A stretch of DNA of 64,000 bases, taken from contig JACQZI010000010.1 of the NCBI GenBank assembly GCA_016207825.1, forward strand, positions 62,001 to 126,000, read 5' to 3'. Under the pieces are notes generated by a model, which did not search any database, was not told the origin of the DNA, and was given only the letters and a program-made list of their open reading frames with translations. Below, in pieces: positions 2,572 to 52,946 of the stretch (its first letter is position 1; the number at the start of each line of letters is the position of its first letter). This DNA is from Planctomycetota bacterium (GTDB taxonomy: Bacteria > Planctomycetota > MHYJ01 > JACQXL01 > JACQZI01). Both the position numbers and the translations under genes were made by a program.

Positions 2572-2844
2572 AACCACCTAAAAGCTGGTTTTAACAACCT
2601 CTGAGCTGGTTTTAAGTACCTAAAAGGTGGTTTTTACCAGCTAAAAGGTGCTTTTAAGTACCTCTGAGGTGGTTTTAACCACCTAAAAGCTGGTTTTAAC
2701 AACCTCTGAGCTGGTTTTAAGTACCTAAAAGGTGGTTTTTACCAGCTAAAAGGTGCTTTTAAGTACCTCTGAGGTGGTTTTAACTACCTAAAAGCTGGTT
2801 TTAAGCACCTCAAAGCTGGTTTTTACTACCTTTGGGCTGGTTTT
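2572..2844. repeat. 21-bp tandem array, 13 units
   Basis: Thirteen units of exactly 21 bp fill 273 bp between bioA and the convergent gene at 2858. Each unit has a cctaaaagctggtttt-like core. Units 1-5 are repeated exactly as units 6-10, a 105-bp higher-order repeat, and units 11-13 diverge. Many units contain a short inverted pair, such as acctctgaggt. There are no spacers, so it is not a CRISPR. Read on the minus strand it encodes a few KTSFEVL heptads before a stop, so it does not look coding. Confidence 0.95.
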
Positions 2845-2857
2845 CCGATACTTTCCG

Positions 2858-3340
2858 TTATGGGTTAGGCGGAAGCGGAACCGATTTCGGCCTGCCCGGA
2901 AACTGCTGTGCCAAATCCTGATAAACGCCAGTCGAGCCCGGCACATTCGCCCGCGCCGCGGCTTTGACACTCTGGTAAAAAGCCAGGCAGTTTGTCAAGA
3001 CATCCGAGCCTAAAAGGAGGTTGGTATCGTCCAAGCTTTCAAGTATTGCCTTGGCGCGCCTGAGCCTGGGGCCGATATCACGTCGCGTATGCATATCGGC
3101 GTCGAGTTCGGGGAGATTAATATATCCGGGGACGATGGAAGGAAGCTGGCTCATATAGTTGCGGCATTTCTGCACCCATTGCGCCATCTCGCTGGAGACG
3201 GAGGCATAGCGAATCCTTTCATTGGGAGTCAAGTTGATGACCTTGCCCATTAAGGTTCCTTCTATGGAAGAGAGCGCCGCATCGAGCGCGGCCAGTTGTT
3301 CCGGAGTGAACGAGACCGAGATAAGATTATCCAATGCCAT
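2858..3340 (-). CDS. Hypothetical protein, 160 aa
   Basis: I do not recognise this protein. It is a soluble, largely helical 160-residue sequence with no signal peptide. It begins MALDNLISVSFTPEQ, carries Arg-rich helical segments in the middle and ends in a proline-rich tail (PKSVPLPPNP). A good Shine-Dalgarno (AAAGGAG, about 8 nt upstream) supports the ATG at 3340. It is the last gene of a minus-strand run that starts at the sigma-54 promoter near 6230, with 53 bp between it and the preceding gene. Membership in the same transcript is inferred from orientation and spacing only. Confidence 0.6.
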   Translation of the reverse strand: MALDNLISVSFTPEQLAALDAALSSIEGTLMGKVINLTPNERIRYASVSSEMAQWVQKCRNYMSQLPSIVPGYINLPELDADMHTRRDIGPRLRRAKAILESLDDTNLLLGSDVLTNCLAFYQSVKAAARANVPGSTGVYQDLAQQFPGRPKSVPLPPNP

Positions 3341-3393
3341 AACGCAACTCCTTTCTTCTCGCCTTATCGGCGGTTACTTCAAAGCAACTATTA

Positions 3394-3813
3394 TTAATGC
3401 ACTATCACTTTAAACGGAATGGTTAATCCACCATATTTTACCATGATATCCGTCGTGCCGGGTTTTAATCCCTTTATGCTAAATTGTGTACTGCCTTGCA
3501 TCAAATATTCTATGCTATCAGTCCGGTTAATATCCCAAACGGGGCTAACCTCAACCGGATTCCCAACAGTATCATACCCGTTAACGGAAAGAACCCGTTC
3601 ATCGCCAACCGACATGGTGATAATCCCATTACTTATATCACCAGCCTGGCTAAGAGGGAGGCTGCTTTGATAAACGGCTAAGTAGTTTAATTTATTTTCG
3701 ACCGGTATTTTTATTACATCTTTAACAGTGTAATTGGTAAAACCAACAAGCGCCACTGACGTTAACCCCAAAACCCCAAGGATACTTAATACCAATTTGG
3801 CTTTTGTCTTCAT
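3394..3813 (-). CDS. Secreted or membrane-anchored Ig-like (BIG2-type) protein
   Basis: The N-terminus is basic and followed by a hydrophobic segment (LVLSILGVLGLTSVALVGF), which fits a signal peptide or membrane anchor. The remaining ~100 residues resemble a bacterial Ig-like group 2 fold, with DERVLSVNGYD, a central PVWDIN and a final GLKPGTTDIMVKYGG strand pattern. I chose the ATG at 3813 because AAAGGG lies 6 nt upstream. The in-frame ATG at 3819 directly abuts that Shine-Dalgarno. It lies downstream of the glycine-rich secreted protein and may be co-expressed with it. Its role is unknown. Confidence 0.65.
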   Translation of the reverse strand: MKTKAKLVLSILGVLGLTSVALVGFTNYTVKDVIKIPVENKLNYLAVYQSSLPLSQAGDISNGIITMSVGDERVLSVNGYDTVGNPVEVSPVWDINRTDSIEYLMQGSTQFSIKGLKPGTTDIMVKYGGLTIPFKVIVH

Positions 3814-3857
3814 ATCCATCCCTTTCTTTTAATATTCGACGTCATGGGCTCCCGATA

Positions 3858-3876
3858 TTCCCGCTATTCAGCGGGA
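3858..3876. repeat. Palindrome at the 3' end of the glycine-rich gene
   Basis: The sequence ttcccgct-attc-agcggga forms a hairpin about 20 bp beyond the stop of the gene at 3898. No U-run follows on the minus strand, so it is not a classical terminator. It more likely belongs to the genome's dispersed cccgctNNNNagcggg elements, but it could still protect or end the transcript. Confidence 0.35.
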
Positions 3877-3897
3877 TTCCGGTTTTTCATCTTAAGG

Positions 3898-5889
3898 TTA
3901 AGGCGGAATCCCTACACATGCAGCATTCTCAAATTCTAAATAAGAGCTATCCGCTATTTCTACCCCGGCACGTTGACCACCTCCAATATCATTTGCCAGT
4001 TTATACACGATGTAATACGTCTTAGAAGTGGTCGTCACCTGCCATTGCCTCATATTGAGATAACACGTGCCGTTGGTGAAGTTGCCTTTGGCGATAAAGG
4101 TATCGTTGACACTCCAAAATCCGTTGTTATCATTATCACACCAGACCTGGATTTCGATTTTGTTATCAGGACAGGGTGTGTTAACACCGGTAACGCCCTT
4201 ATCAATCCTGAACCGTTTCCACTTAGCGGTGCCGGAAATAGTTGCTGCGTTAAACTTAACAAAGGCGATTGACTGCCCCATTTGAACCGGTGCATTCCCA
4301 TTAGTTAAAGAAGTCCAGTTCGTGGTAGTAACCAATATCTCTGTATTATTATAATAATCCACACTCCAGTCTGATAAACTTGGGGTTTGAGTGGTATCGG
4401 ATGTAGAAAAATTAGCCCTGAGCTTTATCCCGATGATATTAGTAAAGGTCGCCGGATAAGCGGCGGACAAACAGGTCCCGTACGGGACATTCGCTTGTAA
4501 CAGGGAGTTATTAGAAGAACTCAGAACATCAACCGTCAAAATCGTATTAGCCGGGATAGTTCGGGTATAACCCAGAATACCCCAGTAAGCAACACCGGCA
4601 GGTGTGATGGCGATTGAGGTATACAAACCCGGATTCTTATAAGGAACTACTGTTCCGTAATAATTCGGAACGGGGTTATTCCCTGAAAACGAAATATATT
4701 GCGCATGTGTCCGCCCGCCGCCGTTGGCCGAAACGCCACCTGAATTAGTGATTTGGTTTGAAAGAAATACAATTGAACCGCCTGCTCCGCTTCCTCCACT
4801 ACCACCAACAGCATGATAATCACCATTCCAACTCGATCCTCCGCCAGCACCCCCGCCACCGTTTGCGCAGACAGATGCACCTGCTACAATATCTAATGTA
4901 TCTGCGGCAATTATAACCATACCCCCTCCTCTGCCACCTGACCCACCGCCTGCGGCTGCACAATAATAATCCCCATCCTCAGCTACGGCACCGCCTCCGC
5001 CACCACCGCCGGCACCCAGATAGGATAACTGGTTAAGTATAATCTCGCTTGCCGGATTTGTTCCGTTGCCACCCCCTCCTGCGGTGGCAGTCCCAGGATC
5101 ACCATACAGATGAGCACCGCCGCCTCCTGCTCCCCCTCCAATTCCGGCAGGGGATTCTCCTACGCTACCATTATTCCAAGAACCGCCACCACCGCCGCCG
5201 GTAAAACCGCAACCATTCGTATGAATACCATTCGCCACATTAACTGTTACCGTACTGGTAGCGCGAAAAACCAAAACACCGCCTTTAGTCCCATCCCAAA
5301 CAGAACAAGTAAGTGAGCCACCGGCATTAACCGTTACATTCGTATAATTTGGAACACGCTGAACCATTATTTTATCAAGAGTGCCGTTATATCCATTGGT
5401 TAATGCTCTATTGAGATTTAGGGTATTCACGTTGACGGAAGTTATACGGGCAAATTCATAACGCCCGACATTACCGCTTGTCCCCTTAAGGCTGATAATA
5501 ATGATTTCATCGCCGACCGCCATTCCAGCGGGAACTGAGGTAACAACAATGGCTGTATCACCGCCTAAGGTATTCACCGTAGAAGTTGTATTAACCGCAT
5601 CAGCCGAGGCACGATTGAAAATATCAGTATTGATATTCTTCGCGGCGACAACTGTGATTGCTCCATCCGCACCGTTTCCACAGTCAATAGGAGAATGCTC
5701 TAATTTAATATCCGCCGAACCGATGGTAGTTGTGGTATTGGAAAAAGTGCCGGAGGTGAAGGCGGTTTCGGACCAGTTATCGGCGTAAAGATTCACTCCC
5801 GCCACGGCGGGACAAAGAACGCAGAGAAATCCGATAACTAAATTTCCCCAATGCAAACTGAGGTTATGTTTCACTTCGCAATTTTTCAT
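3898..5889 (-). CDS. Secreted glycine-rich surface protein
   Basis: The product is 663 residues, with a short N-terminal region and a hydrophobic segment (LVIGFLCVLCPAVAGV) that suggests export. It then has a beta-rich domain, a central Gly-rich region (about residues 225-390) with runs such as GAGGGGGGG and repeated NGGG and GSGG motifs, and a C-terminal Thr/Asn-rich beta domain with WKRFRIDKG and EIQVWCDNDNNG. Such architecture is common in large surface or matrix proteins of environmental bacteria. I cannot assign a specific function. A Shine-Dalgarno (AAAGGA) precedes the ATG. It is the second gene after a sigma-54 promoter and follows a 76-residue gene by 23 bp. Repetitive GGN codons make the region low-complexity. 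Confidence 0.75.
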   Translation of the reverse strand: MKNCEVKHNLSLHWGNLVIGFLCVLCPAVAGVNLYADNWSETAFTSGTFSNTTTTIGSADIKLEHSPIDCGNGADGAITVVAAKNINTDIFNRASADAVNTTSTVNTLGGDTAIVVTSVPAGMAVGDEIIIISLKGTSGNVGRYEFARITSVNVNTLNLNRALTNGYNGTLDKIMVQRVPNYTNVTVNAGGSLTCSVWDGTKGGVLVFRATSTVTVNVANGIHTNGCGFTGGGGGGSWNNGSVGESPAGIGGGAGGGGAHLYGDPGTATAGGGGNGTNPASEIILNQLSYLGAGGGGGGGAVAEDGDYYCAAAGGGSGGRGGGMVIIAADTLDIVAGASVCANGGGGAGGGSSWNGDYHAVGGSGGSGAGGSIVFLSNQITNSGGVSANGGGRTHAQYISFSGNNPVPNYYGTVVPYKNPGLYTSIAITPAGVAYWGILGYTRTIPANTILTVDVLSSSNNSLLQANVPYGTCLSAAYPATFTNIIGIKLRANFSTSDTTQTPSLSDWSVDYYNNTEILVTTTNWTSLTNGNAPVQMGQSIAFVKFNAATISGTAKWKRFRIDKGVTGVNTPCPDNKIEIQVWCDNDNNGFWSVNDTFIAKGNFTNGTCYLNMRQWQVTTTSKTYYIVYKLANDIGGGQRAGVEIADSSYLEFENAACVGIPP

Positions 5890-5912
5890 AAATTTTTTCC
5901 TTTCTTAAATAC

Positions 5913-6143
5913 TTATATACCAATAAGCGAAGTCCGTTCCCAGCCTATGAGATAACCATTTTTAAAGAAATAATGATCTTCATTATTTGTATGAAGAGAC
6001 ACATAAACCCATTTCTGTTCCCGCCGCTCAATAGGTAATTTTGAGTCTTTAGTCGGTTCAACCCATTTAGACAAAGGCTTGCCACGAAGGGCAAGAATGT
6101 CATCCGTGGTTAAAGGGGGACAAGCTAAAGTAGTTTTACTCAT
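5913..6143 (-). CDS. Small hypothetical protein, first gene after the sigma-54 promoter
   Basis: This is a 76-residue soluble protein with no recognised domain (MSKTTLACPPLTTDDILALRG...). It has a strong Shine-Dalgarno (AGGAGG, 6 nt before the ATG). It starts about 80 bp downstream of the -12 element of the sigma-54 promoter and precedes the glycine-rich secreted protein by 23 bp, so it is probably the promoter-proximal gene of that operon. The N-terminal half has a TTDDILALRGKPLSKW segment and the C-terminus is aromatic-rich. No function can be proposed. Confidence 0.65.
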   Translation of the reverse strand: MSKTTLACPPLTTDDILALRGKPLSKWVEPTKDSKLPIERREQKWVYVSLHTNNEDHYFFKNGYLIGWERTSLIGI

Positions 6144-6222
6144 AAAGACCTCCTGTTATAAGCGTCTTGTTCTTAAATAACGCCTAACGCATCACGCACA
6201 ACTCATAACGCCTACATTATAT

Positions 6223-6238
6223 AGCAAATATCGTGCCA
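6223..6238 (-). promoter_or_regulatory. Sigma-54 (-24/-12) promoter
   Basis: Read on the minus strand the sequence is TGGCACGATATTTGCT, a full match to the sigma-54 consensus TGGCAC-N5-TTGC with the invariant GG and GC at the right spacing. It lies about 80 bp upstream of the gene at 6143 and points at it. The neighbouring upstream gene is a sigma-54 activator, which strengthens the call. Confidence 0.88.
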
Positions 6239-6383
6239 AGTTTTCGGGAATTTGATGGAATAGTTACTATTGTATAACCCTATGTAAATAAAAAGGTTGG
6301 AAAGAATCTACTCTAAAAAAAAGGAAATGGGTTTGGATAAATTGGTGTATCCTTTGGGAACAGTTGTATTAATCAGATACAGC
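6239..6383. other. Possible enhancer region for the sigma-54 promoter
   Basis: This is 145 bp of AT-rich sequence between the activator stop and the -24 element, the zone where activator sites usually lie. I see only a short inverted pair, aatag-tta-ctatt (6259-6271), close to the promoter, and no convincing pair of long palindromes. Confidence 0.25.
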
Positions 6384-20439: not shown

Positions 20440-21732
20440 ATGACTAACGCTTATGTATCCGAACTATCCAAACACGTCGGCAAAGAAGTTACTATCAAAG
20501 GCTGGCTCTATAACAACCGCTCCAGCGGGAAGATTCAGTTCATGCAGGTGCGCGACGGCACCGGAATCGTCCAGTGCGTCTTCTCACCCAAGGACGTGGG
20601 AGAAGAGACCTTTAAGGCCTGCGACAAGCTTCCGCAGGAAAGCTCACTGGCCGTTACCGGCTCGGTGCGGGAAGACAAACGCGCCCCCGGCGGCTACGAA
20701 CTGACCGTAAAGGCAGTCCAGATTTTCCAGCAGGCAGAGCCATACCCGATTGCCCTGCAGGAACACGGCGTCGGATTCCTCATGGAACAGCGCCACTTGT
20801 GGCTGCGCTCCAAGAAACAGGTCGCCGTCCTGAAAATCCGGGCGGAAATCATACGCGCCATCCGCGACTTCTTTGATAATAACGGATTTACCCTTGTTGA
20901 TACGCCGATACTTACCCCGGCCGCCTGCGAAGGCACGACCACCCTTTTTGAAGTGACTTACTTTGATGACAAGGCATATCTTACCCAGAGCGGACAGCTT
21001 TATAACGAAGCCAACGCCATGGCGCTGGGCAAGGTCTATTGCTTCGGTCCCACTTTCCGCGCGGAGAAATCCAAGACCAGGAAGCACCTGATGGAATTCT
21101 GGATGGTCGAACCGGAAGTCGCTTATGCCGAGCTTAACGACATCATGGATTTGGCGGAGAATTTCGTGGAATATATCGTCCAGCGCGTCCTTGAAAAACA
21201 TCAGGAAAACCTGAAGGTTCTGGAACGCGATACCAAACCATTGGAAAAGGTCAGGAAACCGTTCCCGCGCGTTGCTTACAGCGAGCTCATGAAATCATTT
21301 GATGAATGGAAACATCCCTTTAAGAAAGGCGATGACCTGGGCGCGCCGGAAGAAAGCGTTATCGGGCAAAAGTTTGATAAGCCGGTACTGATTCACCGCT
21401 TCCCCATGGCGGTCAAGGCGTTTTATATGAAGCCCGACCCGGCTGACCCGACCTATGCACTGTGCGTAGATATGATTGCGCCGGAAGGCTACGGCGAAAT
21501 CATCGGCGGCGGACAGCGTGAAGACGATGTCAACAAACTCACCGCCAAGATTAAGGAATGCAAGCTCCCGATGGCGTCGTTTGAATGGTATCTGGATTTA
21601 CGGAGATACGGCTCTGTCCCGCACGGCGGATTCGGGCTGGGTGTCGAGCGCACCGTAGCGTGGATTTGCGGAAGGGAACATATCAGGGAATGCATCCCTT
21701 ATCCGAGGATGCTTTATAAGATTTATCCGTAG
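20440..21732 (+). CDS. asnS: Asparaginyl-tRNA synthetase
   Basis: Class II synthetase charging tRNA-Asn. The N-terminal OB-fold ([24 protein letters not shown]) is followed by the catalytic domain with motif 2 [21 protein letters not shown] and motif 3 [16 protein letters not shown]. The Asn-type active site ([19 protein letters not shown]) distinguishes it from AspRS. The length of 430 residues is normal. Shine-Dalgarno AAAGGA is well placed. It is downstream of the GxxExxY cassette, so its native promoter spacing may have been altered. Confidence 0.96.
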
Positions 21733-22295: not shown

Positions 22296-22581
22296 ACCGC
22301 TTTACACCACTCTCTATATCATTTAGGTATACAGAGGTTGCCGTTTAGGCACACTATCCATGCCGTTTAACTATACAAAGATTATCGTTTAGGTATACTC
22401 TCCTTGCCGTTTTCCTATACTATCTATATCATTTACCCCTACCATCTATACCGTTTTACGCCGCCATCCATGCCGTTTGGATATACTAAGATTGCCATAT
22501 AACCATACAGGGATTACCGCATAACTATATAGATTATACCGCATAGATACACAGATTATATGGTTTACCCCCACCGGGATA
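22296..22581. repeat. 22-bp tandem array, about 13 units
   Basis: Thirteen consecutive 22-bp units (286 bp) have the loose consensus gccgtttaggtatac followed by a c/a/t-rich end in -at or -tt. Starts fall at 22318, 22340, 22362, 22384, 22406, 22428, 22450 and so on. Units differ by several bases, but the period is kept exactly. No spacers and no open frame. Confidence 0.88.
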
Positions 22582-22665
22582 GGGGTAGTCCCCCCCCTGT
22601 TTGGCTATAACCTTATGATTTATAATAGGTAATATTCAAATTCAGTCTCCCCTAAAACCGGCTGG

Positions 22666-22925
22666 AAGTGCCCCGATGGGTCGGGACTCCACTGCTGTTT
22701 CGCCTTATATTTAAGATGAAGATAAAATGTCCTTTTTACCATCATTCCAGCAAACGCGGGAATCCAGACTTAAATACTGGATTCCGTGTCAAGCACGGAA
22801 TGACACCGACACTTTGTGTCGGAATTCGTCTTTATTCGCCCCCTGCCTACCGGCGGGGACTCCCCATTAATCGGGTGCCCCCGAACCCCGCCTAAGCGGG
22901 GGGAGCGGGGTGTTATTCGTGTTCT
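22666..22925. repeat. Cluster of dispersed GC-rich palindromic elements
   Basis: This 260-bp stretch has no gene. It contains ccccgatgggtcgggactcc, a hairpin with arms ggaatccag and ctggattcc, cacggaatgacacc, and attaatcgggtgcccccgaa followed by aagcggggggagcggggtg. The last is the intergenic relative of the insertions in tsaB and the sigma factor. Confidence 0.75.
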
Positions 22926-24262: not shown

Positions 24263-24280
24263 CCAGACCATCCTTTCTTA

Positions 24281-24735
24281 AACACGAATCAGACGAATAG
24301 AACGAATCCCACGAATAATAATTCAATTAGCGATACGTTTATATTCGACCTTCTTCTTCCCGAAATTTATAAGGATTCCGAGTTTCAACCCGGTTGCCTT
24401 TAAGTATGAGTATAATTGCGCTTCAAACACTTCATTTAATTCTGAAACGGCTTTAAGTTCCAGTATAACCTTATCTTCTACTATTAAATCTAACCTAAAA
24501 TCGCCCAAATCTTCATCCTTATAAATAACTTTTACCGGTTTCTGTGTTTCATAACTAATCTTCCGGTCACGAAATTCCCGGCATAGCGCTTTCTCATACT
24601 TATCCTCCGGAAAACCGGGACCAAGAATATTATGAACCTCAAATACCGCTTCCATTATTTTATAGGATATATCCTTGTAAATAAAATCGTCCATATTCGT
24701 GTTATTCGTCTAATTCGTGTTATTCGTGTTATTCT
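24281..24735. mobile_element. Candidate cassette: GxxExxY gene bracketed by inverted 9-bp units, copy 2
   Basis: The left arm (24281-24318) is four 9-bp units: aacacgaat, cagacgaat, agaacgaat, cccacgaat. The right arm (24694-24735) is the same type inverted: attcgtgtt, attcgtcta, attcgtgtt, attcgtgtt. They enclose only a GxxExxY gene inside the Ebo-like operon. Confidence 0.68.
24323..24694 (-). CDS. GxxExxY protein (PD-(D/E)XK nuclease-like), copy 2
   Basis: A 123-residue relative of the protein at 20009, with GPGFPEDKYEKAL (GxxExxY) and the core RLDLIVEDKVILELKAV (Asp, Glu-x-Lys). The C-terminal QLYSYLKATGLKLGILINFG segment is conserved between the copies. The ATG directly follows an acgaat unit of the flanking array, and no separate Shine-Dalgarno is seen. 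It interrupts a run of five metabolic genes on the same strand (UbiA upstream, phosphodiesterase downstream) with which it has no obvious link. Function is unknown. Confidence 0.88.
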   Translation of the reverse strand: MDDFIYKDISYKIMEAVFEVHNILGPGFPEDKYEKALCREFRDRKISYETQKPVKVIYKDEDLGDFRLDLIVEDKVILELKAVSELNEVFEAQLYSYLKATGLKLGILINFGKKKVEYKRIAN

Positions 24736-25440
24736 TTACGTCATCTCGAAAATTATTCCTAATACCAAAGCCGGTATCATCAACGATGCTATTATACCTG
24801 CCTGCCAGTAATATCCGTTCATAAAAACCAGCAATCCGTCTATAAGCGGGATAATCAGGATTCCTGTTTTCACTATCTTGCGAAGCGCGGGCTTATCATT
24901 CTCTAATCTAGCCAGTGCTGTGGTTATTGCAATGTAGATAAATATTATTACAGGGAATATTATAAACTCTTTGGGGAATGCCCCCCCGATATTTAATCCC
25001 AATTCCCAATTAAAAGCGCGGCATAGCGGCATGAATATGATGGCGGTAATAAACCATCTCTTAAACAATGAATCATAAAGAAACGCGCTTAATGCGATAA
25101 CGGAACAAATAACGCCTGCGCTTGCCGAAATCATAAACCCGCAAACAATTCCCGCCATGAGCAAAAGGATTCCAAAGGACAAAGCTATTGACGGCTTGAT
25201 AACGCCCGAAGGCAAAACCCGATTGGGACGCTCTTTTTTATCACGTTTCAAATCGAAGTAATCATTAAGCGCCATCCCGCCGCTGTAAAGCGCGGCTGAG
25301 GCAACCGAGCCGAATATGATGTGGGCGGTTGCCGGGAAAACGCTCCCTGCAACAACCATCCCTGCCCAGACATTTGATATGGCAGTGAAAATATTGGGCA
25401 GGCGGATTAATCTTAACAAACCAATGATAAAACGAAACAT
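24736..25440 (-). CDS. UbiA family prenyltransferase (EboC-like)
   Basis: A polytopic inner-membrane enzyme of 234 residues with about seven to eight hydrophobic segments. It carries the first Asp-rich motif NDYFDLKRDKKERPNR (Asp60, Asp63, Asp67), where the family binds Mg-prenyl diphosphate. The second region is reduced to YDSLFKRW. The short length and this motif fit EboC-type members. It would prenylate an aromatic or polyol acceptor. Given the inositol-phosphate synthase in the operon, an inositol-type acceptor is conceivable but unproven. The downstream cassette array begins at its stop. Confidence 0.88.
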   Translation of the reverse strand: MFRFIIGLLRLIRLPNIFTAISNVWAGMVVAGSVFPATAHIIFGSVASAALYSGGMALNDYFDLKRDKKERPNRVLPSGVIKPSIALSFGILLLMAGIVCGFMISASAGVICSVIALSAFLYDSLFKRWFITAIIFMPLCRAFNWELGLNIGGAFPKEFIIFPVIIFIYIAITTALARLENDKPALRKIVKTGILIIPLIDGLLVFMNGYYWQAGIIASLMIPALVLGIIFEMT

Positions 25441-28498: not shown

Positions 28499-30616
28499 TT
28501 AGAATAAACCTTCGATTGTGACAATAAAATTCGTTCCTGATTCGTTGTTGCCGGAACCATGAATGCGGTAATCACGGCCGGTAATATTTTCCACCCCCGC
28601 CGAGATATTAAAGTATTTATTTAGCCTGGTTCCTCCTTTAAGATTATAAATCGTGTAGCCGGGCGTGCCGTCCGGTGGTATTCTTTGCGTATCCAGTTTA
28701 TCCAAAGGAGATAATCTATCCTGCCGGTCGGCTATCTTAACCATGCCTTCAAGCCATGTTTTACTATCAACATTTTCCCATCGGCCGCCAAAGGTAAATG
28801 CCGGAGGCGGTATTTTGGACATGGGTTTTTCTTCTTTAACCAAGGCCGAGGTCGGATAAGTATCCACCGCGCCTCTCTGGCAACCGGCGCCGGCAAAAAT
28901 ACTCCACTGGTTATCTATCTCGTATTTCCCGCTTAATTCGCCGCCGTAAATAAAGCCGTCCCCGATATTCGCTTTTTGCACCTCGTTCTTGCCGCTGACG
29001 ACATTACCGGTCGGATAACGGACAATCATATCCTTGATATTGGTATGGAAAACCGCGCCTTGTACGCTGAATGTTTCGTATCTTGCCTTGGCTCCGGTTT
29101 CTATGGTGGTAAAATATTCCGGCTTCAATCCGGGAGAAGGCATTTCTATCTCATTGGAAAGCGCGATATCCAGCCGTGACAGGTCGGAAAGGTTCGGCGC
29201 CCTGAACCCCTGGGAAACACCGCCGAATATATTCCAATTCTCATTCGCTAAGTATGCCAGGCGCAAATTACCCACCAAACTGCTCCAGTTATCTTCCAGG
29301 GAAATCTGCTTCTTTGTATTCGGGTCGTAACCCTTATCCGCAGAGACATCAACCTTGGTATAACGCGTGCCGGCGGTCACTGTCATCTTTTGCGTCAGCG
29401 CGTATTCATCCTGGATATAAACGCCGCCCATATCATACGTGGCGTTATCCGCGATTGAGCCCTGGATTCCAATCGATTCCAATGTACCGTCGGATTTGTA
29501 ATTTCGGGCAAAGGAATTGGCGTTGTCGCGGTAAAACTCCACGCCGTAACTGAGGTAACCCAAAGAAGACTTACATTCAGCCTGCGCAAAGAACCCGGCT
29601 GTGCCGATGGTAAAGCCCTGCGTCTCTATTTTATCATTGGAACGCAGGCGGAACTGCTCCTCATCCTGCGCCTGGTAAGAAAAGCTGAATTTCGCCTTGT
29701 CTCCCATCCAGCCGGCTTCATCCTTATGATATTGGACGTAAAAAAGCTCTCTGGCATGGTCCAATGAACGCTCCTTATCCGTTCCGATGGCTGTCCCACG
29801 CCATGATATGCCGTAAACGGTCGAATGCGTGCGCCAGGCATCCGGCTGGGTAACCTTTTGGTAAACCAGGACCAGCTTATCGACTGAAGATAATTTATAA
29901 TCCAGCCTGATATCATAATCATTTTCCCGATAGCCTGTTTCGGGTTGTAAACCGACATACCTGCCTCCGGCGAGGTCGCCAAAATCCTTGCCTGAAGCTC
30001 CGGCAATAAACGACAACGATTTATTGACTGTGTATGACGATTCCAATCTTGTTACGGCTGATTTATCCGCACTTGAATAACGCTGAACCATCCGGCCATG
30101 CCATCCATCTTTCTCTGGGACGGGAGTCAGGGCATTGACCGCGCCGCCGATTGAATCGCTCCCGTAAAGGACGGAAGAAGGGCCTTTGACTATTTCCAGT
30201 TGTCCGATGGTAAAAGAATCAACCGTATTCCAATATTCATTCGGCCCATCGCGGAAGGCGGAGTTATTCAAACGGACACCGTCTATCATAAAAAGGGTGC
30301 GGAAGCCGGTAAACCCGCGCAGGAACGGGGCGCCCTGCCCCTGCGAGGTCTTCTGGACGGTGATTGAGGGGTCGGATGAAAATATTTCGGGGGTCGTCCG
30401 GCTCATCTGTTGGTTCTGGATTTCCTCTGCGCTAATAACCTCAGCGATATAAGGCGACTCCAAAACCTTCTCCTCATGGCGCGAGGCGGTCACGATTATC
30501 TCATCGGCTTCCTCGCGTTTGACCCCTATAGTTTCTGAATCATCAGCTAAGGCAACCGGAATACAAGGAGTTATCACCACAAAGGCGCAAAGGGCACCAA
30601 GAAATACATGCTTCAT
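28499..30616 (-). CDS. TonB-dependent outer-membrane receptor
   Basis: A ligand-gated outer-membrane transporter of about 705 residues. It has a signal peptide (FLGALCAFVVITPCIPVALA), a TonB box EIIVTASR, a plug domain (IQNQQMSRTTPEIFSSDPS, FLRGFTG, LEIVKGPSSVLYGSDSIGG) and a beta-barrel ending in TNFIVTIEGLF. It is closest in style to FepA/CirA/BtuB-type receptors. The ligand is not evident. I chose the ATG at 30616, which follows AAAGGA and starts the signal peptide; an ATG at 30640 adds eight residues. It is first in the operon with ino1, TatD, TIM barrel, UbiA and the phosphodiesterase, which links it to that pathway's product or to a metal. Confidence 0.93.
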   Translation of the reverse strand: MKHVFLGALCAFVVITPCIPVALADDSETIGVKREEADEIIVTASRHEEKVLESPYIAEVISAEEIQNQQMSRTTPEIFSSDPSITVQKTSQGQGAPFLRGFTGFRTLFMIDGVRLNNSAFRDGPNEYWNTVDSFTIGQLEIVKGPSSVLYGSDSIGGAVNALTPVPEKDGWHGRMVQRYSSADKSAVTRLESSYTVNKSLSFIAGASGKDFGDLAGGRYVGLQPETGYRENDYDIRLDYKLSSVDKLVLVYQKVTQPDAWRTHSTVYGISWRGTAIGTDKERSLDHARELFYVQYHKDEAGWMGDKAKFSFSYQAQDEEQFRLRSNDKIETQGFTIGTAGFFAQAECKSSLGYLSYGVEFYRDNANSFARNYKSDGTLESIGIQGSIADNATYDMGGVYIQDEYALTQKMTVTAGTRYTKVDVSADKGYDPNTKKQISLEDNWSSLVGNLRLAYLANENWNIFGGVSQGFRAPNLSDLSRLDIALSNEIEMPSPGLKPEYFTTIETGAKARYETFSVQGAVFHTNIKDMIVRYPTGNVVSGKNEVQKANIGDGFIYGGELSGKYEIDNQWSIFAGAGCQRGAVDTYPTSALVKEEKPMSKIPPPAFTFGGRWENVDSKTWLEGMVKIADRQDRLSPLDKLDTQRIPPDGTPGYTIYNLKGGTRLNKYFNISAGVENITGRDYRIHGSGNNESGTNFIVTIEGLF

Positions 30617-30717
30617 AATAAATTTTCCTTTATTTAACATTACCTATATAAGCGCAGGGAACGGGGAAAAGGTTCGGTCCGATAAATAGAATTTTAGTTT
30701 TTGTTTATGGGGTAGAC

Positions 30718-31003
30718 TGGCTCGCACCATGGAGCATAGTAGTTATTATAATGGGGTCGGGTAGCTTTTAGAATGGGGTCTGGTAGCTCTTACCTATACG
30801 TATTATAGCTTTTAGAATGGAGTCAGGTAGCTTTTACCTATATGTATTATAACTTTTAGGGGTGAGTAATATAGCTTTTACCCGTATGTATTATGGCTTT
30901 TAGAGGGGAGTAATATAGCCTTTACCCGTATGTATTATAGCCTTTAAGATGGGGTCGGGTAGCTTTTATAATGGAGTCTGGTAGCCTTTAGGGGGGTGTA
31001 TAC
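30718..31003. repeat. 22-bp tandem array with alternating unit types, 13 units
   Basis: Thirteen units of exactly 22 bp (286 bp) all begin tagcttttag or a close variant. Two unit types largely alternate (one continuing aatggagtcagg, the other cctatatgtatta), giving a 44-bp higher-order period. It lies upstream of the TonB receptor. There are no spacers and no coding frame. Confidence 0.93.
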
Positions 31004-31211
31004 CCGCCCCCTCCGCTACGTTGCGGGGGCTATAGCCCCCATTTTAATTCATTACGGGGACGCCTGATTCTAATATATAAGTAGGAAAGCCCCGACATTC
31101 GTCGGGATGCCGATTGATTATAAGATTGAATAGCAAGGACAGCCCCTTCGTCTGAAACCAGCTTATATTGAGTTTAGGGTGCTCCTCTATATATGGGGTA
31201 GGGTGGGGAGG
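31004..31211. repeat. GC-rich palindromic element between arrays C and D
   Basis: The gap holds cgccccctccgctacgttgc and gggggctatagccccc, a perfect 16-bp palindrome (31026-31041), then ttacggggacgcc and ccccgacattcgtcgggatg. The rest is unremarkable. No gene is seen. Confidence 0.55.
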
Positions 31212-31497
31212 CGGCTCTAAAAGCTATCCCAAACGGCTCCAAGAGTTATCCCAAGCGGCTCGAAGAGCTACCCCGAACGGCTCCAAGAGTTACGGGAAAC
31301 TGCACCAAAGGGTATGGAAAGCGACTCCAAGAATCCCGGGGAGCGGCTCCAAAATCCCTATGGAACGGCACCTAAAGGTATAGGGAACGGCTTTAAAAGG
31401 GCTGGGAACCCGCACCTAAATCTATCCGGGACTGCACGAAGAGGTATGGGGTACGGCTCCAAAAAGTATCCCGACCGGCACCTTAAAAATCAGGTAA
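31212..31497. repeat. 22-bp tandem array, 13 units
   Basis: Thirteen units of 22 bp (286 bp) have the loose consensus cggctccaagagctatccc. Starts at 31212, 31454 and 31476 confirm that the period holds without drift. Units are more degenerate in the second half. On the opposite strand the core reads agcttttagag, close to array C. A frame stays open through part of it, but I do not regard it as a gene. Confidence 0.9.
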
Positions 31498-32743: not shown

Positions 32744-33340
32744 ATGAGCAATACGCCTGACGACATCCAATTAATGGCGCTGGTAAAAGACGGCAATCTT
32801 GACGCCTTCCGCCAGATTATGGAGCGCCACCAGAATTCCTTACTGAACTTTTTCCGGCGTTCGGGCGCTGATATATATAGGGCCGAAGATTGCGTCCAGG
32901 AGACCTTTATAAAGCTCTATAATTACAGGAGGAAATATAAGGCGACTGCTAAGTTTACCACGTTTTTGTATACGCTGGCAAGGCATAGCTGGGCGGATGA
33001 ATGCAGGAAGAATAAATTCCGCCACAGAGACACCCCCTACCTTCGGTATGGGACTCCCTATTATTCGGGTGTCCCCGAAGCGAAGCGGAGCGGGGCAGAG
33101 GACACTGAGGCAATATCGGATTCTAAACAGGATTGTTCGGATAAGAAACTGGATATAGAGATGGCTCTGGGAAAACTATCGGATAAGTTGAGAGAAACAA
33201 TAATATTAAACGTTTACCAGGGGCTTGATTACCAGGAGATTGCCGAGGTCTTGGAAATCCCACTGGGTACGGTGAAGTCGAGGATGTCTGCGGCGTTTGA
33301 GGAGTTAAGAAAAATTTTAGGAGAGGATGAACACGAATGA
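32744..33340 (+). CDS. ECF-type RNA polymerase sigma factor
   Basis: A 198-residue sigma-70 family factor. Region 2 spans ~10-92, with AEDCVQETFIKLYNYRRKY and FTTFLYTLARHSWADECRK. Region 4 spans ~138-192, with LRETIILNVYQGLDYQEIAEVL and LGTVKSRMSAA as the helix-turn-helix. The linker between them is lengthened by a palindromic element (residues ~97-119) in frame. The stop codon lies inside an inverted array of cacgaat units. It is followed after 100 bp by an anti-sigma-like gene, the usual regulator pairing. No Shine-Dalgarno is visible before the ATG. Confidence 0.93.
   Translation: MSNTPDDIQLMALVKDGNLDAFRQIMERHQNSLLNFFRRSGADIYRAEDCVQETFIKLYNYRRKYKATAKFTTFLYTLARHSWADECRKNKFRHRDTPYLRYGTPYYSGVPEAKRSGAEDTEAISDSKQDCSDKKLDIEMALGKLSDKLRETIILNVYQGLDYQEIAEVLEIPLGTVKSRMSAAFEELRKILGEDEHE
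33032..33100. repeat. Dispersed GC-rich element inserted in the sigma factor gene
   Basis: It contains tatgggactccc, attattcgggtgtccccgaa and gcgaagcggagcgggg. This matches, in order, the elements in tsaB and at about 22855-22910. It adds about 23 in-frame codons to the sigma2-sigma4 linker. Confidence 0.75.
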
Positions 33341-43618: not shown

Positions 43619-44129
43619 AATTATCCCTATTTACAATCCGATGAGTACCGGGACTCCTCCCTGCTGCGTTAATCCCGTGATAAAACGCCGGGAATTTATA
43701 ATCTTTCCTTAGGGGATATCCTTCCCAATCATCCGGCATAAGAAGCCTTTCCAAATTAGGATGTCCGTAAAAAATTATACCAAAAAGATCGAATGTTTCT
43801 CTTTCATACGAAACAGCCCCCGGCCAGACATTTGATACGGTTGGCACCGAAGGATTTTCCCTATCCGTGTTTACTTTTATAACTGTTTTATGCAATTTCT
43901 TGGTGGAAAACAGGTGATAAGCCACACTGAATCGATCCGGATAATCAACCCCGCTCAGGCACACGAGGCTATCCATCAGCAATTGCCCATCATCCTTCAG
44001 GAAAGTGGTAATTTCAGGCAGGCTTTTCGCATCAACAACGATAAAAGCGTCTTTAGGAGGCTCATTATAAGCCAAAACCTTCCCGTTAAACTTTGCTTTG
44101 AGCAAATCGTATATTTCTTTTGTATTCAT
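43611..44129 (-). CDS. nuoC: NADH-quinone oxidoreductase subunit C
   Basis: The 30-kDa-type peripheral subunit of complex I. The diagnostic segment VSNVWPGAVSYERETFDLFGIIFYGHPNLERLLMPDDWEGYPLRKDY is complete. I chose the ATG at 44129 (MNTKEIYDLLKAKFN), which gives 172 residues. An upstream ATG at 44162 adds eleven residues coded partly by a 16-bp palindrome and is less likely. No clear Shine-Dalgarno is seen. It overlaps nuoD. Confidence 0.95.
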   Translation of the reverse strand: MNTKEIYDLLKAKFNGKVLAYNEPPKDAFIVVDAKSLPEITTFLKDDGQLLMDSLVCLSGVDYPDRFSVAYHLFSTKKLHKTVIKVNTDRENPSVPTVSNVWPGAVSYERETFDLFGIIFYGHPNLERLLMPDDWEGYPLRKDYKFPAFYHGINAAGRSPGTHRIVNRDNYA

Positions 44130-44141
44130 TGTGTTATGGTG

Positions 44142-44157
44142 TAGGACTATAGTCCTA
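44142..44157. promoter_or_regulatory. 16-bp perfect palindrome between nuoB and nuoC
   Basis: The sequence taggactatagtccta is perfectly self-complementary and lies 12 bp before the nuoC start. It may be an RNA hairpin that tunes nuoC translation, a protein-binding site, or a dispersed element. No loop bases are left, so cruciform or dimeric protein binding fits better. Confidence 0.45.
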
Positions 44158-44179
44158 ACCACTGAAAATCACATTAAAG

Positions 44180-44686
44180 TTATTCATGTAACGATTTTCT
44201 TGCTTTCGCTATAGTTTTCCTCTTGATTACCTGCTGTAATTTTATTAATCCTTCCAAAAGGCTATCCGGCCTGGGAGGGCAACCCGGTATATACACATCC
44301 ACCGGAACAATTAAATCCACTCCTTGCACCACTGAATATGTATTCTTGCTAATAAAGGGTCCACCGCTACAAGCACAGGTCCCCATGGCGATCACATATT
44401 TCGGCTCGGCCATCTGGTCATAGACAAGTTTTAACCGTTCCGCCATCTTATATGTAAGCGTCCCTGAAACTATCATCAAATCCGCTTGGCGCGGAGACGG
44501 CCTGAAAGCCTCAGCCCCGAAACGGGCGATATCAAACCGGCTCATCCCGGTTGCCATCATTTCTATAGCACAGCATGCTAGACCAAATGTCACCGGCCAG
44601 AGTGAATTACGCCTGCCCCAGTTGATGAAATAATCCGCGCTGGTAACGATAAAATTCTTTTCAAACCTGTTTTCTATTAACCCCAT
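44180..44686 (-). CDS. nuoB: NADH-quinone oxidoreductase subunit B
   Basis: The PSST-type subunit that carries cluster N2, the last iron-sulfur cluster before quinone. The ligands are Cys38 and Cys39 (LACCAIEMM), the cysteine in MGTCACSGG and the one in PGCPPRPD. The 168-residue length is normal. It starts 2 bp after the nuoA stop. All residues expected for a functional N2 site are present. Confidence 0.97.
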
Positions 44687-48590: not shown

Positions 48591-48613
48591 CGCAAGGAAC
48601 AATAAAACATAGG
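48579..48613. repeat. 11-bp hairpin between tRNA copies
   Basis: Arms cctatgtttta (48579-48589) and taaaacatagg (48603-48613) are perfect. No T-run follows. Confidence 0.5.
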
Positions 48614-48637
48614 ATTAATTATAAGTAATGCCGACAC

Positions 48638-48714
48638 GGGGGCGTAGCTCAAATGGTTAGAGTACCAGACTGTCGATCTGGATGTTGGGGGTTCGAATCC
48701 CCTCGCCCTCGCCA
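48638..48714 (+). tRNA. tRNA-Asp (anticodon GTC)
   Basis: The acceptor arms gggggcg and cgccctc pair, with discriminator G and CCA encoded. The anticodon stem ccaga/tctgg has loop ctgtcga (anticodon GTC), and the T-arm ggggg-ttcgaat-cccct folds. Confidence 0.96.
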
Positions 48715-48770
48715 TTTTCCTTATTTATTGTATAAACCCTGAATGATTCCACTTCTAGCGTATTAAGATT

Positions 48771-49955
48771 ATGAACCCTTTATCCGTTAACTTCGCAGGT
48801 CTTAACCTGATAAACCCGTTTCTCCTGGCTTCGGGTCCGGCAACCCGTGATAAAGATTCTATCCGCTCGGCATTCAAAGCTGGCTGGGCAGGTGCGGTAA
48901 CCAAGACCATTTCCCTAAAACCGCCTGTAAGCCCGACCCCGCGTTTATACCTCTTTGAATCTATTGACAGCCTTATCAATATAGAACTAATCTCGGAATT
49001 TACCCATCGCCAGTGGGCTAACTGGATAAAACTCATAAAGAAGGAATTTCCCAAGCAAGCGCTTATTGCCAGTATCATGGGTTCCGTTGAAATGACAGAA
49101 TGGCAAACCCTGGCGAAAGAGATGGAGAAATCCGGTGCCGACGCCTTGGAACTGAATGTCTCCTGCCCGCACGGGATGCCGGAAAAGGCTATGGGTAGCC
49201 TTATCGGTCAGGATAAAACGCTCGTTGCCGAAATAGTCATGTCGGTCAAGGAATGCGTAAAGATTCCGGTCATCGTCAAACTTACTCCTAATGTAACCGA
49301 CCTCGCAGAAATCGCCCGTTCCTGCGAGATATCCGGCGCGGATGCCCTTTCCGGAATAAACACGGTCAAGGCATTTACCGGAATTGATATCAACACTTTC
49401 TCGCCTAAGCTTTCTGTTTACGGGAAATCAGCCTTTGGCGGTTACGGAGGCAAAGCCATTAAACCCATCGCCCTGCGCTGCACAGCGGAAATGGCCCTCT
49501 CCACCAAGCTCCCGGTCAGTGCCATCGGCGGGATTTCAACATGGGAAGACGCGGTTGAGTTCATGCTCATCGGCGCTTCCTGCATACAGGTTTGCACCGC
49601 CGCCATCGCTTACGGGATTAACATCATAGAAGATTTGAAGGACGGATTAAGCAGCTATCTCAAGAAGCACAAATTCAAATCCATCCGCGACATCATCGGC
49701 AAATCAAAGGATAAAATAGTCAGGTTTTCCGAGCTTACCCTGCACCCCAAGCAGGTTTCTGTTATCAATAAATCCAAATGTATTGCCAATTGCCACCAGT
49801 GCTATATCGTCTGCCGCGCCGCCGGATTCAACGCCATTACCCTGGACAACGCCCAAAAACCATTTGTCAATATTTCCTTGTGTAAAGGCTGCGGATTGTG
49901 TATAAGTGTATGTCACTTTAACGCAATCAGGATAACGCCATGCAAGCGAAAATAA
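48771..49955 (+). CDS. preA: Dihydropyrimidine/dihydroorotate dehydrogenase with C-terminal ferredoxin domain (PreA-like)
   Basis: An FMN TIM barrel (PFLLASGPATRDKDSI, AVTKTISLKP, ALELNVSCPHGMPEKAMG, INTVKAFTGID, SAIGGISTWEDA) followed by a ferredoxin domain. The second cluster motif CKGCGLCISVC is standard. The first, CIANCHQCYIVC, is CxxxCxxCxxxC, a known variant in PreA. Together with the dihydropyrimidinase that overlaps its end by 16 bp, it would act in reductive pyrimidine breakdown (uracil to dihydrouracil and on). The PreT partner that passes electrons from NADH is not adjacent. The active-site Cys in NVSCPHG supports dihydropyrimidine rather than dihydroorotate. Confidence 0.9.
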   Translation: MNPLSVNFAGLNLINPFLLASGPATRDKDSIRSAFKAGWAGAVTKTISLKPPVSPTPRLYLFESIDSLINIELISEFTHRQWANWIKLIKKEFPKQALIASIMGSVEMTEWQTLAKEMEKSGADALELNVSCPHGMPEKAMGSLIGQDKTLVAEIVMSVKECVKIPVIVKLTPNVTDLAEIARSCEISGADALSGINTVKAFTGIDINTFSPKLSVYGKSAFGGYGGKAIKPIALRCTAEMALSTKLPVSAIGGISTWEDAVEFMLIGASCIQVCTAAIAYGINIIEDLKDGLSSYLKKHKFKSIRDIIGKSKDKIVRFSELTLHPKQVSVINKSKCIANCHQCYIVCRAAGFNAITLDNAQKPFVNISLCKGCGLCISVCHFNAIRITPCKRK

Positions 49956-51319
49956 TCGGCGGGACAGTCGTTACCTCTGAAAAAGCCTTCCGGGCGGATA
50001 TTGCCATAGACAAAGGCAAGATAAAGAAAATCGCCCCGGCCATCACCGAAGAAGCGCTGGAAGTAATCGATGCCACGGACCAGTTTATCCTGCCCGGCGG
50101 AATAGACGCCCATACGCACTTTGATATGCCTTTCGGCGGGACGGTTACCTCGGACGATTTCTTCACCGGAACGGTCGCCGCGGCCTGCGGCGGCACGACC
50201 TCCATCATAGATTTCGCCATACAGGAAAAAGGCAAATCGCTCAAAGACGCACTGGATACTTGGCACCAGAAAGCGGATAATAAAAGCGTGGTGGATTACG
50301 GATTCCATATCGCCATCACAGATTTAAACGAAGATACCTGGGATGAACTTCATACGCTTACCACACAGGGCATCTCCTCCATCAAAGTATTCCTGGCGTA
50401 TAAAAACTCCCTGATGATTAATGACGAAACTGTCTTTAAACTCCTGCAGGAATCAAACAGGCTGGGATTGCTTGTCATGGCGCACTGCGAAAACGGAGAT
50501 GTCATAGATGTCCTGTCCAAACAGCTTCTGGAACAAGGCAAAACACTGCCGATTTACCACGCGCTGTCACGCCCGGCTGAACTGGAAGACGAGGCAACCA
50601 ACCGCGCAATCAAGCTGGCCGCGGTCGCCAATGCGCCGCTTTATATCGTGCATTTATCGTCACAGGGAGCGCTGGAAAGCGTCCGACAGGCGCATCTCAA
50701 TAAACAGCCGGTATACGCGGAGACCTGCCCCCATTACCTGGTGCTTTCCATGGACCAATATAGCAAGCCCGCCTTTGAAGGCGCTAAATACGTGATGTCT
50801 CCGCCATTGCGCGGTAAACACCACCAGGCTGCCCTCTGGAAAGGGCTGGCGGAAAAGACATTAAGCACCATCGGTTCAGACCACTGTGCCTTTAACATGA
50901 AAGAGCAAAAGGAATTAGGCAAGGACGATTTCTCGAAAATCCCCAACGGCATCCCCGGAGTGGAAACAAGAATTCCTCTCCTTTACAGCGAAGGAGTCAC
51001 TAAAAACAAGATTAACTTAAACCAGCTGGTGGATATCACCTCAACAATGCCGGCAAAACTCTTCGGCTTATATCCGGCTAAAGGCGAAATCGCCGAGGGA
51101 AGCGATGCGGATATCGTAATCATTAATCCTAAAAAGCGGATAGAGCTTACCGTCAATAAACTCCACCAGAATGTTGATTATTGTCCCTATGAAGGAATGA
51201 CACTAAAGGGAATGATTTATTACGTACTTTTAAGGGGACAAACTATCGTGCGCAAAGGCAGTTTCCTCGGGACCAAAGGCATGGGAGAATTTCTTAAACG
51301 AAGGGTTTTTAAACTTTAA
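49940..51319 (+). CDS. hydA: Dihydropyrimidinase (D-hydantoinase)
   Basis: A zinc amidohydrolase that opens dihydrouracil or dihydrothymine to the N-carbamoyl acid. Ligands seen are His58 and His60 (GIDAHTHFDMP), the carboxylated Lys149 (SSIKVFLAYK), His in LLVMAHCENGD, His in YIVHLSSQGAL and Asp in IGSDHCAFN. The length of 459 residues is normal. It overlaps preA by 16 bp, so the two are expressed together. The third enzyme of the pathway (beta-ureidopropionase) is not in the window. Confidence 0.95.
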   Translation: MQAKIIGGTVVTSEKAFRADIAIDKGKIKKIAPAITEEALEVIDATDQFILPGGIDAHTHFDMPFGGTVTSDDFFTGTVAAACGGTTSIIDFAIQEKGKSLKDALDTWHQKADNKSVVDYGFHIAITDLNEDTWDELHTLTTQGISSIKVFLAYKNSLMINDETVFKLLQESNRLGLLVMAHCENGDVIDVLSKQLLEQGKTLPIYHALSRPAELEDEATNRAIKLAAVANAPLYIVHLSSQGALESVRQAHLNKQPVYAETCPHYLVLSMDQYSKPAFEGAKYVMSPPLRGKHHQAALWKGLAEKTLSTIGSDHCAFNMKEQKELGKDDFSKIPNGIPGVETRIPLLYSEGVTKNKINLNQLVDITSTMPAKLFGLYPAKGEIAEGSDADIVIINPKKRIELTVNKLHQNVDYCPYEGMTLKGMIYYVLLRGQTIVRKGSFLGTKGMGEFLKRRVFKL

Positions 51320-51411
51320 CACACCCCTGTCCCCCGACGTTACGTCGGGAGACATCCCCTCTTATTAGAGGGGAATTAAAACTCCCCTCTTGAGAGGGGG
51401 TAGGGGGTGTG
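51320..51411. repeat. Dispersed palindromic element between hydA and ribE
   Basis: The sequence acacacccctgtcccc, cgacgttacgtcgggag, atcccctcttattagagggg and ctcccctcttgagagggg ends ggggtgtgtg. The outer ends cacaccccc and gggggtgtg are inverted. A relative sits in frame inside the anti-sigma gene (33669-33779). Confidence 0.8.
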
Positions 51412-51436
51412 TGATTTTGTTATAGACTATTAAAAT

Positions 51437-52081
51437 ATGTTTACAGGAATAATACAAACTATCGGCAAAGTCGCCAATATCAGGAAGACAAAAAGCGACT
51501 CCCAGATTGCCATTAACCTGAAAGCCCTATCACGCAAAGTGGCTTTGGGCGATAGCGTCGCTATTAATGGCGTTTGCCTGACCGCCACCAGGAAAACCGG
51601 AGAGACCGTATTGTTTGACGCGGTCAAGGAAACCATTTCACACACCAATCTCGGAAAGCTAAAAAGAGGCAACCCGGTAAATATAGAGCTTGCCATCAGG
51701 GCAGGAGAGCCGTTCGGAGGACATTTTGTCCAGGGACATGTGGACGGAATAGGCACGATTTCCCGCAAATATAAAGAAGGCAATGGATTTGTTATTGAGA
51801 TAAAGACCACTCCTCAAATAACAGGACAGATGATAGAAAAAGGCTCGGTGGCGATAGACGGCATTAGTCTCACCATTACCGGAATCGGGAAAGACCGGTT
51901 TACCATCGCGATTATTCCGCATACATTAAAGCACACAACCCTGCTCGGGAAACGAATCGGGGAAACGGTCAACCTGGAAACAGATATGCTGGGCAAGTGG
52001 CTGAAGAAACTTCTGGACCCCAAGTCCGTGAAAAGCTCTCTAAACCCCATCCCCAGAGAAATCCTCAAACAACTGCTTTAA
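51437..52081 (+). CDS. ribE: Riboflavin synthase, alpha subunit
   Basis: The enzyme dismutates two 6,7-dimethyl-8-ribityllumazine molecules to riboflavin. It starts with the diagnostic MFTGIIQTIGKV, has two lumazine-binding domains and the motif GGHFVQGHVDGIG in between, with repeats of SVAINGVCLT and GSVAIDGISLT. The length of 214 residues is normal. No other rib genes lie nearby. A dispersed element separates it from hydA, and an inverted repeat follows its stop. Confidence 0.96.
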   Translation: MFTGIIQTIGKVANIRKTKSDSQIAINLKALSRKVALGDSVAINGVCLTATRKTGETVLFDAVKETISHTNLGKLKRGNPVNIELAIRAGEPFGGHFVQGHVDGIGTISRKYKEGNGFVIEIKTTPQITGQMIEKGSVAIDGISLTITGIGKDRFTIAIIPHTLKHTTLLGKRIGETVNLETDMLGKWLKKLLDPKSVKSSLNPIPREILKQLL

Positions 52082-52084
52082 TAT

Positions 52085-52160
52085 TTAACAGGGACTCTTA
52101 AGAGACTCTAACGAGACAAAGATTTCAGTCTCTTAAAAATCTCGTCCAAGTCCCTGTTAA
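52085..52160. repeat. Inverted repeat downstream of ribE
   Basis: Arms ttaacagggact (52085-52096) and agtccctgttaa (52149-52160) are perfect, with further aagagactc/gtctctta pairing inside. It may serve as a terminator-like hairpin. Its right arm is also inverted against 52542-52558, beyond the next gene. Confidence 0.75.
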
Positions 52161-52250
52161 TAATTTTCCCTAAAATCTCATTTCCCAGTTGACAAAAGCC
52201 CTAATATCAGTTATACTTGTAATGTCCACTGAAAATAGAAAGGAGCGCGT

Positions 52251-52520
52251 ATGATGAAAGACTTCCGTGTTGCCCAGGAGTTCTTTGAACTGACCAAAAA
52301 CTACTGGATAATGACCACTGAGATGCTCATATCATTCCAGGAACAAAACGAAAAGATGTGGAAAACATTGGTGGAACAAGGCTGCGTTAAACACGATGAA
52401 GCCAGAGAAATGATGGAAAAATGGTTGACTTGGACCAAGGAGCAAAGGGAGCAGTTTAATAAATTAATGGAAGAAAACTGGAAAAAAGCCGAGAATCTGT
52501 TTAATAATAAGAAGAAATAA
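52251..52520 (+). CDS. Small helical protein, possibly phasin-like
   Basis: An 89-residue, almost wholly helical and charged protein (MMKDFRVAQEFFELTKNYWIMTTEMLISFQEQNEKMWKT...). The heptad-like spacing of hydrophobics and the pattern of Phe/Trp near Lys/Glu resemble small phasin-like or coiled-coil proteins. I see no specific motif and cannot name a function. Shine-Dalgarno AAAGGAG is well placed. The gene is bracketed by 17-bp perfect inverted repeats (52142-52158 and 52542-52558), a layout like the GxxExxY cassettes. Confidence 0.7.
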   Translation: MMKDFRVAQEFFELTKNYWIMTTEMLISFQEQNEKMWKTLVEQGCVKHDEAREMMEKWLTWTKEQREQFNKLMEENWKKAENLFNNKKK

Positions 52521-52541
52521 GACACGGAATTCAAGATATTC

Positions 52542-52558
52542 AACAGGGACTTGGACGA
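52542..52558. repeat. Right arm of inverted repeat around the 52251 gene
   Basis: aacagggacttggacga is the exact inverse of 52142-52158. It is followed by a one-sided run of attcgtg units (52588-52622). Confidence 0.7.
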
Positions 52559-52660
52559 GACTTGTAACCTAAAAACATAATTTTGTATTCGTGGAATTCG
52601 CTCTATTCGTGAAATTCGTGTTTAATCTCCAGCGGTCTTTGAAAATTTATACCGGATAGG

Positions 52661-52946
52661 GCTATACGGATAGTCTACTGTAACTATCATGGAGCCTCTC
52701 CGCAGCTATCATAGAGCCCCTCCGCAGCTACCATGGAGTCTGGGTGCGGCTATGATGAGGTCTCACCACGGCTATCATTGAGCCTGACCACAGCTATCAT
52801 GGAGCATAGGCGTAGCTATGATGCAGTCTCTCCGCAGCTACCATGGAGTCTCTCCATGGCTATAATAGAGTCTGGGCGTAGCTATGATGGAGTCTGGGCG
52901 CGGCTATCATGGAGTCCCTCCGCGGCTATCATGGAGTCTCGCCATG
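52661..52946. repeat. 22-bp tandem array, 13 units
   Basis: Thirteen units of 22 bp (286 bp) have the consensus gctatcatggagtctctccg, with alternating C/G in the fifth-to-sixth positions and ggg/ctc in the second half. Starts at 52683, 52705 and 52925 keep phase. A partial unit follows (gctatagatg). No spacers and no coding frame. Confidence 0.94.

Follow-up and report, generated by a model that had tools for sequence, protein, structure and literature searches.

Five intergenic tandem arrays in one stretch of a planctomycete genome nearly agree in period and number of units, and the question they raise is what could hold spacing and number constant while unit sequence varies. The window, by which we mean the whole 64,000-nucleotide stretch analysed here, comprises bases 62001-126000 of contig C10 in a 2.89-Mb genome of 42 contigs (97.6% complete), and the nearest named relatives of its asnS gene are Planctomycetota MAGs, a groundwater isolate among them. 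The original prediction described five arrays of about 13 units with a fixed period of 21 or 22 bp, and proposed either a constraint on spacing or a copying mechanism that produces fixed-size arrays. All five arrays are present at those periods and positions, and shuffled sequence scanned in the same manner as the real DNA yielded none, placing them beyond chance. As had also been predicted, they are not CRISPR arrays, the units being contiguous with no unique spacers between them.

Four of the five arrays have a 22-bp period and hold 12-14 units each by profile scoring. Array 2 (22296-22581, + strand; 13 x 22 bp, non-coding) occupies a convergent gap past asnS (20440-21732, +) and ends on the right in a palindrome made of a G-run and a C-run (AGGGGTAGTCCCCCCCCT, 22581-22598, +). 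Array 3 (30718-31003, +; 13 x 22 bp), upstream of a TonB-dependent receptor gene (28499-30640, -), alternates two unit types in a 44-bp superperiod and bears a right-end palindrome of the same kind (GGGGGGTGTATACCCGCCCCC, 30991-31011, +); the complete element 3 spans 30698-31015 (+), its limits being set by two other genomic copies, at locus L108 on contig C23 and locus L109 on contig C38. Array 4 (31212-31497, -; 12-13 x 22 bp, non-coding) has a G-rich end (ATATATGGGGTAGGGTGGGGAGG, 31189-31211, -) and adjoins a tail motif, t1 (CTGAAACCAGCTTATATTGAGTT, 31152-31174, +), which is present beside five more array families. Array 5 (52661-52963, +, with the predicted array at 52661-52946; 13 x 22 bp) lies past ribE (51437-52081, +), has a G-run/C-run palindrome to its right (GGGGTAGTACCACCCC, 52988-53003, +), and its unit is related to that of an array elsewhere in the genome (L111).

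The prediction had treated the five arrays as one group, which holds for these four and fails for array 1 (2571-2844, unstranded), which has bioA (1088-2548, +) on its left and a convergent ORF (2858-3340, -) on its right. Array 1 consists of 13 units of 21 bp with a 5-unit (105-bp) superperiod and an internal dyad in each unit (ACCACCTAAAAGCTGGTTTT). Its 21-bp period, its hairpin-like units and the absence of a G-run end place it in another class than the 22-bp elements, with units of its type giving folding z-scores of about -3, against an average of about -0.9 for the 22-bp arrays. Loci of the 21-bp class (L093 4228-4552, L104 13229-13396, L128 3866-4075, L097 4048-4446 and window 2571-2844) mostly hold 7-19 units of hairpin-like type and often lie in or next to ORFs, close to gene starts or ends. 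One such locus in genome G003 (L217) strings together about 27 units of several kinds. A 21-bp period is also seen in an uncultured Acidobacteria MAG, in a 16-unit array with no spanning ORF (L057 9748-10085).

Other short dispersed intergenic repeats also occur in the window (22740-22911, 33009-33115, about 24280-24740 and 44118-44206), with many copies in the genome and across the order, and include runs of a 9-bp TATTCGTGT unit. A further dispersed repeat of ~450 bp has at least five copies (L105 12553-13037, L020 18214-18664, L110 9970-10503, L022 17389-17811 and L109 11307-11637), two of which end within 100 bp of an array.

Whether the 22-bp arrays of the window are a chance sample was addressed with a scan for self-match at each period from 8 to 60 bp and at multiples of 21 and 22, covering, in sampled stretches, 1.17 Mb (40%) of the window genome together with 0.48 Mb of a genome of the same genus (G001). 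Genes were called as heuristic ORFs, and one array split at a sampled-stretch boundary (L200/L094) is a single array. Across periods 8-60, non-coding arrays were almost only of 22 bp, with sporadic arrays at 9, 24, 46 and 49 bp. The 22-bp arrays are intergenic, occurring about once every 37 kb over the 40% sampled, and the 26 complete ones in the window genome contain 9-15 units (mean 12.2, SD 1.4). The spread of period and copy number is thus narrow rather than broad, as the prediction required, so that 22 bp stands as the dominant period and the number as a restricted one; the count of 13 is not exact. A coding origin was rejected, since 22 bp shifts the reading frame and most of these arrays have no spanning ORF.

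The class also extends beyond the window genome. Among the comparison genomes, which comprise the congener G001 and G002-G008 from the same order, ten 22-bp arrays in G001 have 10-17 units, and G003 and G007, two genera of another family, carry arrays of the same kind with about 13-19 units, some of those in G003 reaching 18-19. Recurrence of the class is therefore order-wide; about 0.96 Mb scanned from other phyla contained no 22-bp arrays. Several contigs of these MAGs have a terminus within an array or repeat (L019, L134, L135, and L022 at its start), and the arrays therefore probably break assemblies and are undercounted.

What the arrays share is not the unit. A circular-profile search for a common motif in 41 arrays scored 4.67 bits against 4.60 +- 0.10 for a reversed-sequence null, and the GCTTTTA-like core noticed earlier is accordingly not general, some arrays being related as copies. 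When the flanks were compared all against all, 72 of 7482 pairs scored higher than any of 3000 shuffled pairs; the 72 include some overlaps of one region or known duplicates. Arrays show an enrichment of about 15-fold in runs of at least six G or C, with 29 of 198 G6/C6 runs falling in the 1% of sequence located there. One end of the elements is a G-run followed by a C-run in palindrome (for example GGGGGGTGTGCCTACCCCCC), a strong form of which was scored, mostly at one end, in only 23 of 46 arrays, a set that includes a few short or edge arrays. A G-rich form of this end (GGGGGTAGGGTATAGGGGG) is common to elements of G001 and G003 and is partly shared by L195 in the window genome. AT-rich tails form a second component, of types t1 (CTGAAACC.CATTTAATTGAGAT) and t2 (CTAACC.CTTATAAATCAAGATGATA), and six of seven t1 and all seven t2 profile matches adjoin arrays; both profiles were built from array flanks, and the informative part is the near-absence of matches elsewhere. 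The opposite end is often, judged by eye, a T-run with a short G- or C-run. Imperfect GGGGTAT / ATACCCCC-like ends, possibly terminal inverted repeats, occur in some elements only.

The end motif also had predictive value, since used alone as a query it led to a new 22-bp array beside the motif at locus L254 in G003, a successful blind prediction. In other Planctomycetota it was found only in G003, apart from one weak class-level match without an array, and viral contigs contained none. Outside the sampled stretches of the window genome, end-motif and tail matches fall at C10:130385-130473 and C30:56877-56945, each of which would be expected to have a 22-bp array no more than about 70 bp away. 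Orientation relative to flanking genes, counted by eye, was about 14 with and 7 against, which is not significant; element orientation was in part judged by eye, and few complete elements have both ends defined.

Whole elements, and not only their ends, recur at separate loci. The copies of element 3 at L108 and L109 are 90.6% and 86.2% identical to it over 318-319 bp, with the unequal units in identical order in all three and with different neighbours. In G001, the pairs L179/L124 and L120/L127 are likewise whole-element copies, the second pair being the more divergent. Array families group by genome, and of the intervals between aligned orthologous genes of the two congeners most have an array in just one species, with one interval carrying arrays of unrelated families in both. 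Taken together, these observations indicate that copies arise within lineages and inherit the old unit differences. Constancy of the arrays is thus at least partly due to descent, whole heterogeneous arrays having been duplicated to new loci along with their ends. Some of this copying may be segmental duplication, as loci L026 and L211 also have about 350 bp of downstream sequence in common.

Neither a clean empty site nor a target-site duplication was found, the intergenic regions of the congeners aligning too poorly. No autonomous partner was found with the PF01797 profile; the sole Y1 transposase match in the genome is a 94-aa RAYT-like fragment (L232 1492-1773) with no adjoining array. Beside this fragment, at L232 1133-1300, lie two G-rich tracts resembling array ends.

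The second regularity lies in the register. Only 2 phase shifts were counted in 447 units from 36 arrays, although mean unit identity is often 0.5-0.7, while simulated neutral arrays of equal divergence, passed through the same detector filter, accumulated about 2-3 shifts per array. The simulations used indel/substitution ratios of 0.03-0.06, the higher value being that measured on other non-coding repeats of this genome, and were star-like, ignoring the shared ancestry of units, so that the true expectation is lower and the gap still large. The claim that ordinary slippage is insufficient and that spacing is constrained is supported by this comparison. Superperiods of 44, 66, 88 and 110 bp occur in the arrays, and a helical sub-period at 10-11 bp was absent from them.

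These results bring together dispersed whole elements, conserved ends, free unit sequence, a fixed register and a narrow number of units. We consider it probable that the 22-bp arrays are the bodies of dispersed, presumably non-autonomous MITE-like mobile elements of ~320-370 bp, being short, non-coding, multi-copy and situated at unlinked loci. Such an element would often carry a T-run with a short G- or C-run on one side and the G-run/C-run palindrome with an AT-rich tail on the other, and would duplicate whole to new sites. Exchange in whole-unit steps may homogenise the units, leaving the superperiods of 44, 66, 88 and 110 bp, and by such steps unit sequence could drift freely while period and number are inherited. 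Selection would then reject off-register indels and hold both. A period of 22 bp corresponds to about two helical turns. The simplest cause would be a protein multimer of roughly a dozen, touching every unit on one face of the helix and so contacting or wrapping the array, either in transposition or on the chromosome of the host. Within the mobile-element reading, we advance this two-turn protein spacing as a tentative step.

The alternative that survives best keeps the protein and assigns it to the host. Here the arrays would be architectural or regulatory DNA, a platform on which a nucleoid, partition or regulatory protein would need two-turn spacing more than any particular sequence, with copying incidental. 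The strict register, the narrow unit number, the intergenic location (roughly one array per 37 kb) and persistence across the order would all suit such a platform. Against it, most arrays have no counterpart at the same place in the other of two congeners, the genes of which are about 82-88% identical when aligned, no common binding motif exists, and the 10-11-bp sub-period that phased bends would give is missing. We regard it as unlikely.

Ordinary minisatellites, arising by replication slippage in place and sharing a period through coincidence or detection bias, are a distinctly poorer explanation. Units of one array are clearly of common descent and form multi-unit superperiods, and the young arrays show transition-rich differences, as ordinary mutation would produce. 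However, 22 dominates among all the periods of 8-60 scanned, whole arrays travel with their ends, those ends are conserved, and phase shifts are almost lacking, which leaves the slippage account very improbable.

An array RNA gene, its transcript processed to 22-nt units with the palindrome as terminator or processing hairpin, draws on the occurrence of the palindrome mostly at one end and on a unit size resembling that of small guides. Yet on either strand the 22-bp arrays fold about as column-shuffled controls do, no T-run follows the palindrome, and an Rfam search returned only tRNAs, with no match at arrays. Nor do long matches to the units clearly exceed expectation in the rest of the sampled genome: 20 of at least 18 nt were found, against 7-12 for shuffled units, and 5 of at least 20 nt, against none. 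We rejected a guide function on this basis, the matches being only slightly above shuffled and possibly undetected array copies. Transition bias was also rejected as an RNA signature, as only the arrays of lowest divergence reach a ts/tv of about 2 or more, which fits ordinary mutation. RNA genes of this kind seem scarcely more credible than the one explanation still to be named.

Least probable of all is a dedicated machine, reverse transcriptase or rolling circle, writing about 13 copies of a 22-nt template that then decay: it would account for unrelated units within the same frame of ends and count, but the genome, 97.6% complete, has no match to the reverse transcriptase profile PF00078, short and perfectly repeated nascent arrays were not seen in its sampled stretches, and new copies carry old unit differences. 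The same result removes a retroelement product (DGR, retron, DRT or group II intron), and the copying mechanism offered in the original prediction as a source of fixed-size arrays is not supported, whole arrays being duplicated instead.

The mobile-element reading can be set beside several known systems. Plasmid iterons and centromere repeats are direct repeats of ~20-22 bp with two-turn spacing, each with one binding sequence and placed beside a rep or par gene; the present arrays differ in occupying dozens of loci with unrelated units and, in the window, in lying beside housekeeping genes. REP/RAYT palindromes (compare PMC8266576) are intergenic non-autonomous repeats with hairpins that are mobilised in trans. 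The likeness lies in the intergenic, non-autonomous, hairpin-bearing repeat. They differ in that they are not known to have a body of tandem units, and the single RAYT-like fragment of this genome is not near an array.

The closest known system in build is BrickBuilt of P. gingivalis, a minisatellite-bearing MITE with 23-bp repeats and about 19 copies per genome (PMC4596501). It shares with the present elements a dispersed, intergenic, non-coding organisation with a spacer-less tandem body between a leader and a tail. BrickBuilt has one unit sequence in all copies, 1 to 22.8 units, and 12-bp terminal repeats matching IS5-family elements (PMC4596501), whereas here the units are unrelated (no common motif in 41 arrays), the period is 22 rather than 23, the number is narrow, and the elements end in G/C-run palindromes, without a known parent transposon. 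None of the listed element ends resembles the IS5-like, GAGACCTT-type terminal inverted repeats (PMC4596501, table 2). With one unit for all copies and no set number of units, BrickBuilt is a separate family from the present elements. MITEPgRS/464, also of P. gingivalis, has 41-bp tandem repeats inside a MITE as cited in PMC4596501, and is similar as a minisatellite within a MITE-like element; its 41-bp unit is family-wide, and the passage citing it reports no fixed-number, variable-sequence behaviour. Our literature search, which was not exhaustive, found no published description of 22-bp arrays, whether from Planctomycetota or from other sources.

These elements escape sequence-similarity tools because their units are unrelated. 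Slightly more doubtfully than for the two-turn spacing, they may form a class of mobile DNA, spread across the order, whose only informative parts are the ends and the 22-bp metre, period and count being read by a protein and selection acting on spacing alone. The arrays would add a class of satellite-like mobile element in bacteria and offer an unusually clear example from nature of non-coding DNA kept in spacing and number, not in sequence. With them it becomes possible to test whether metre alone is enough for a protein or transposition complex to select DNA.
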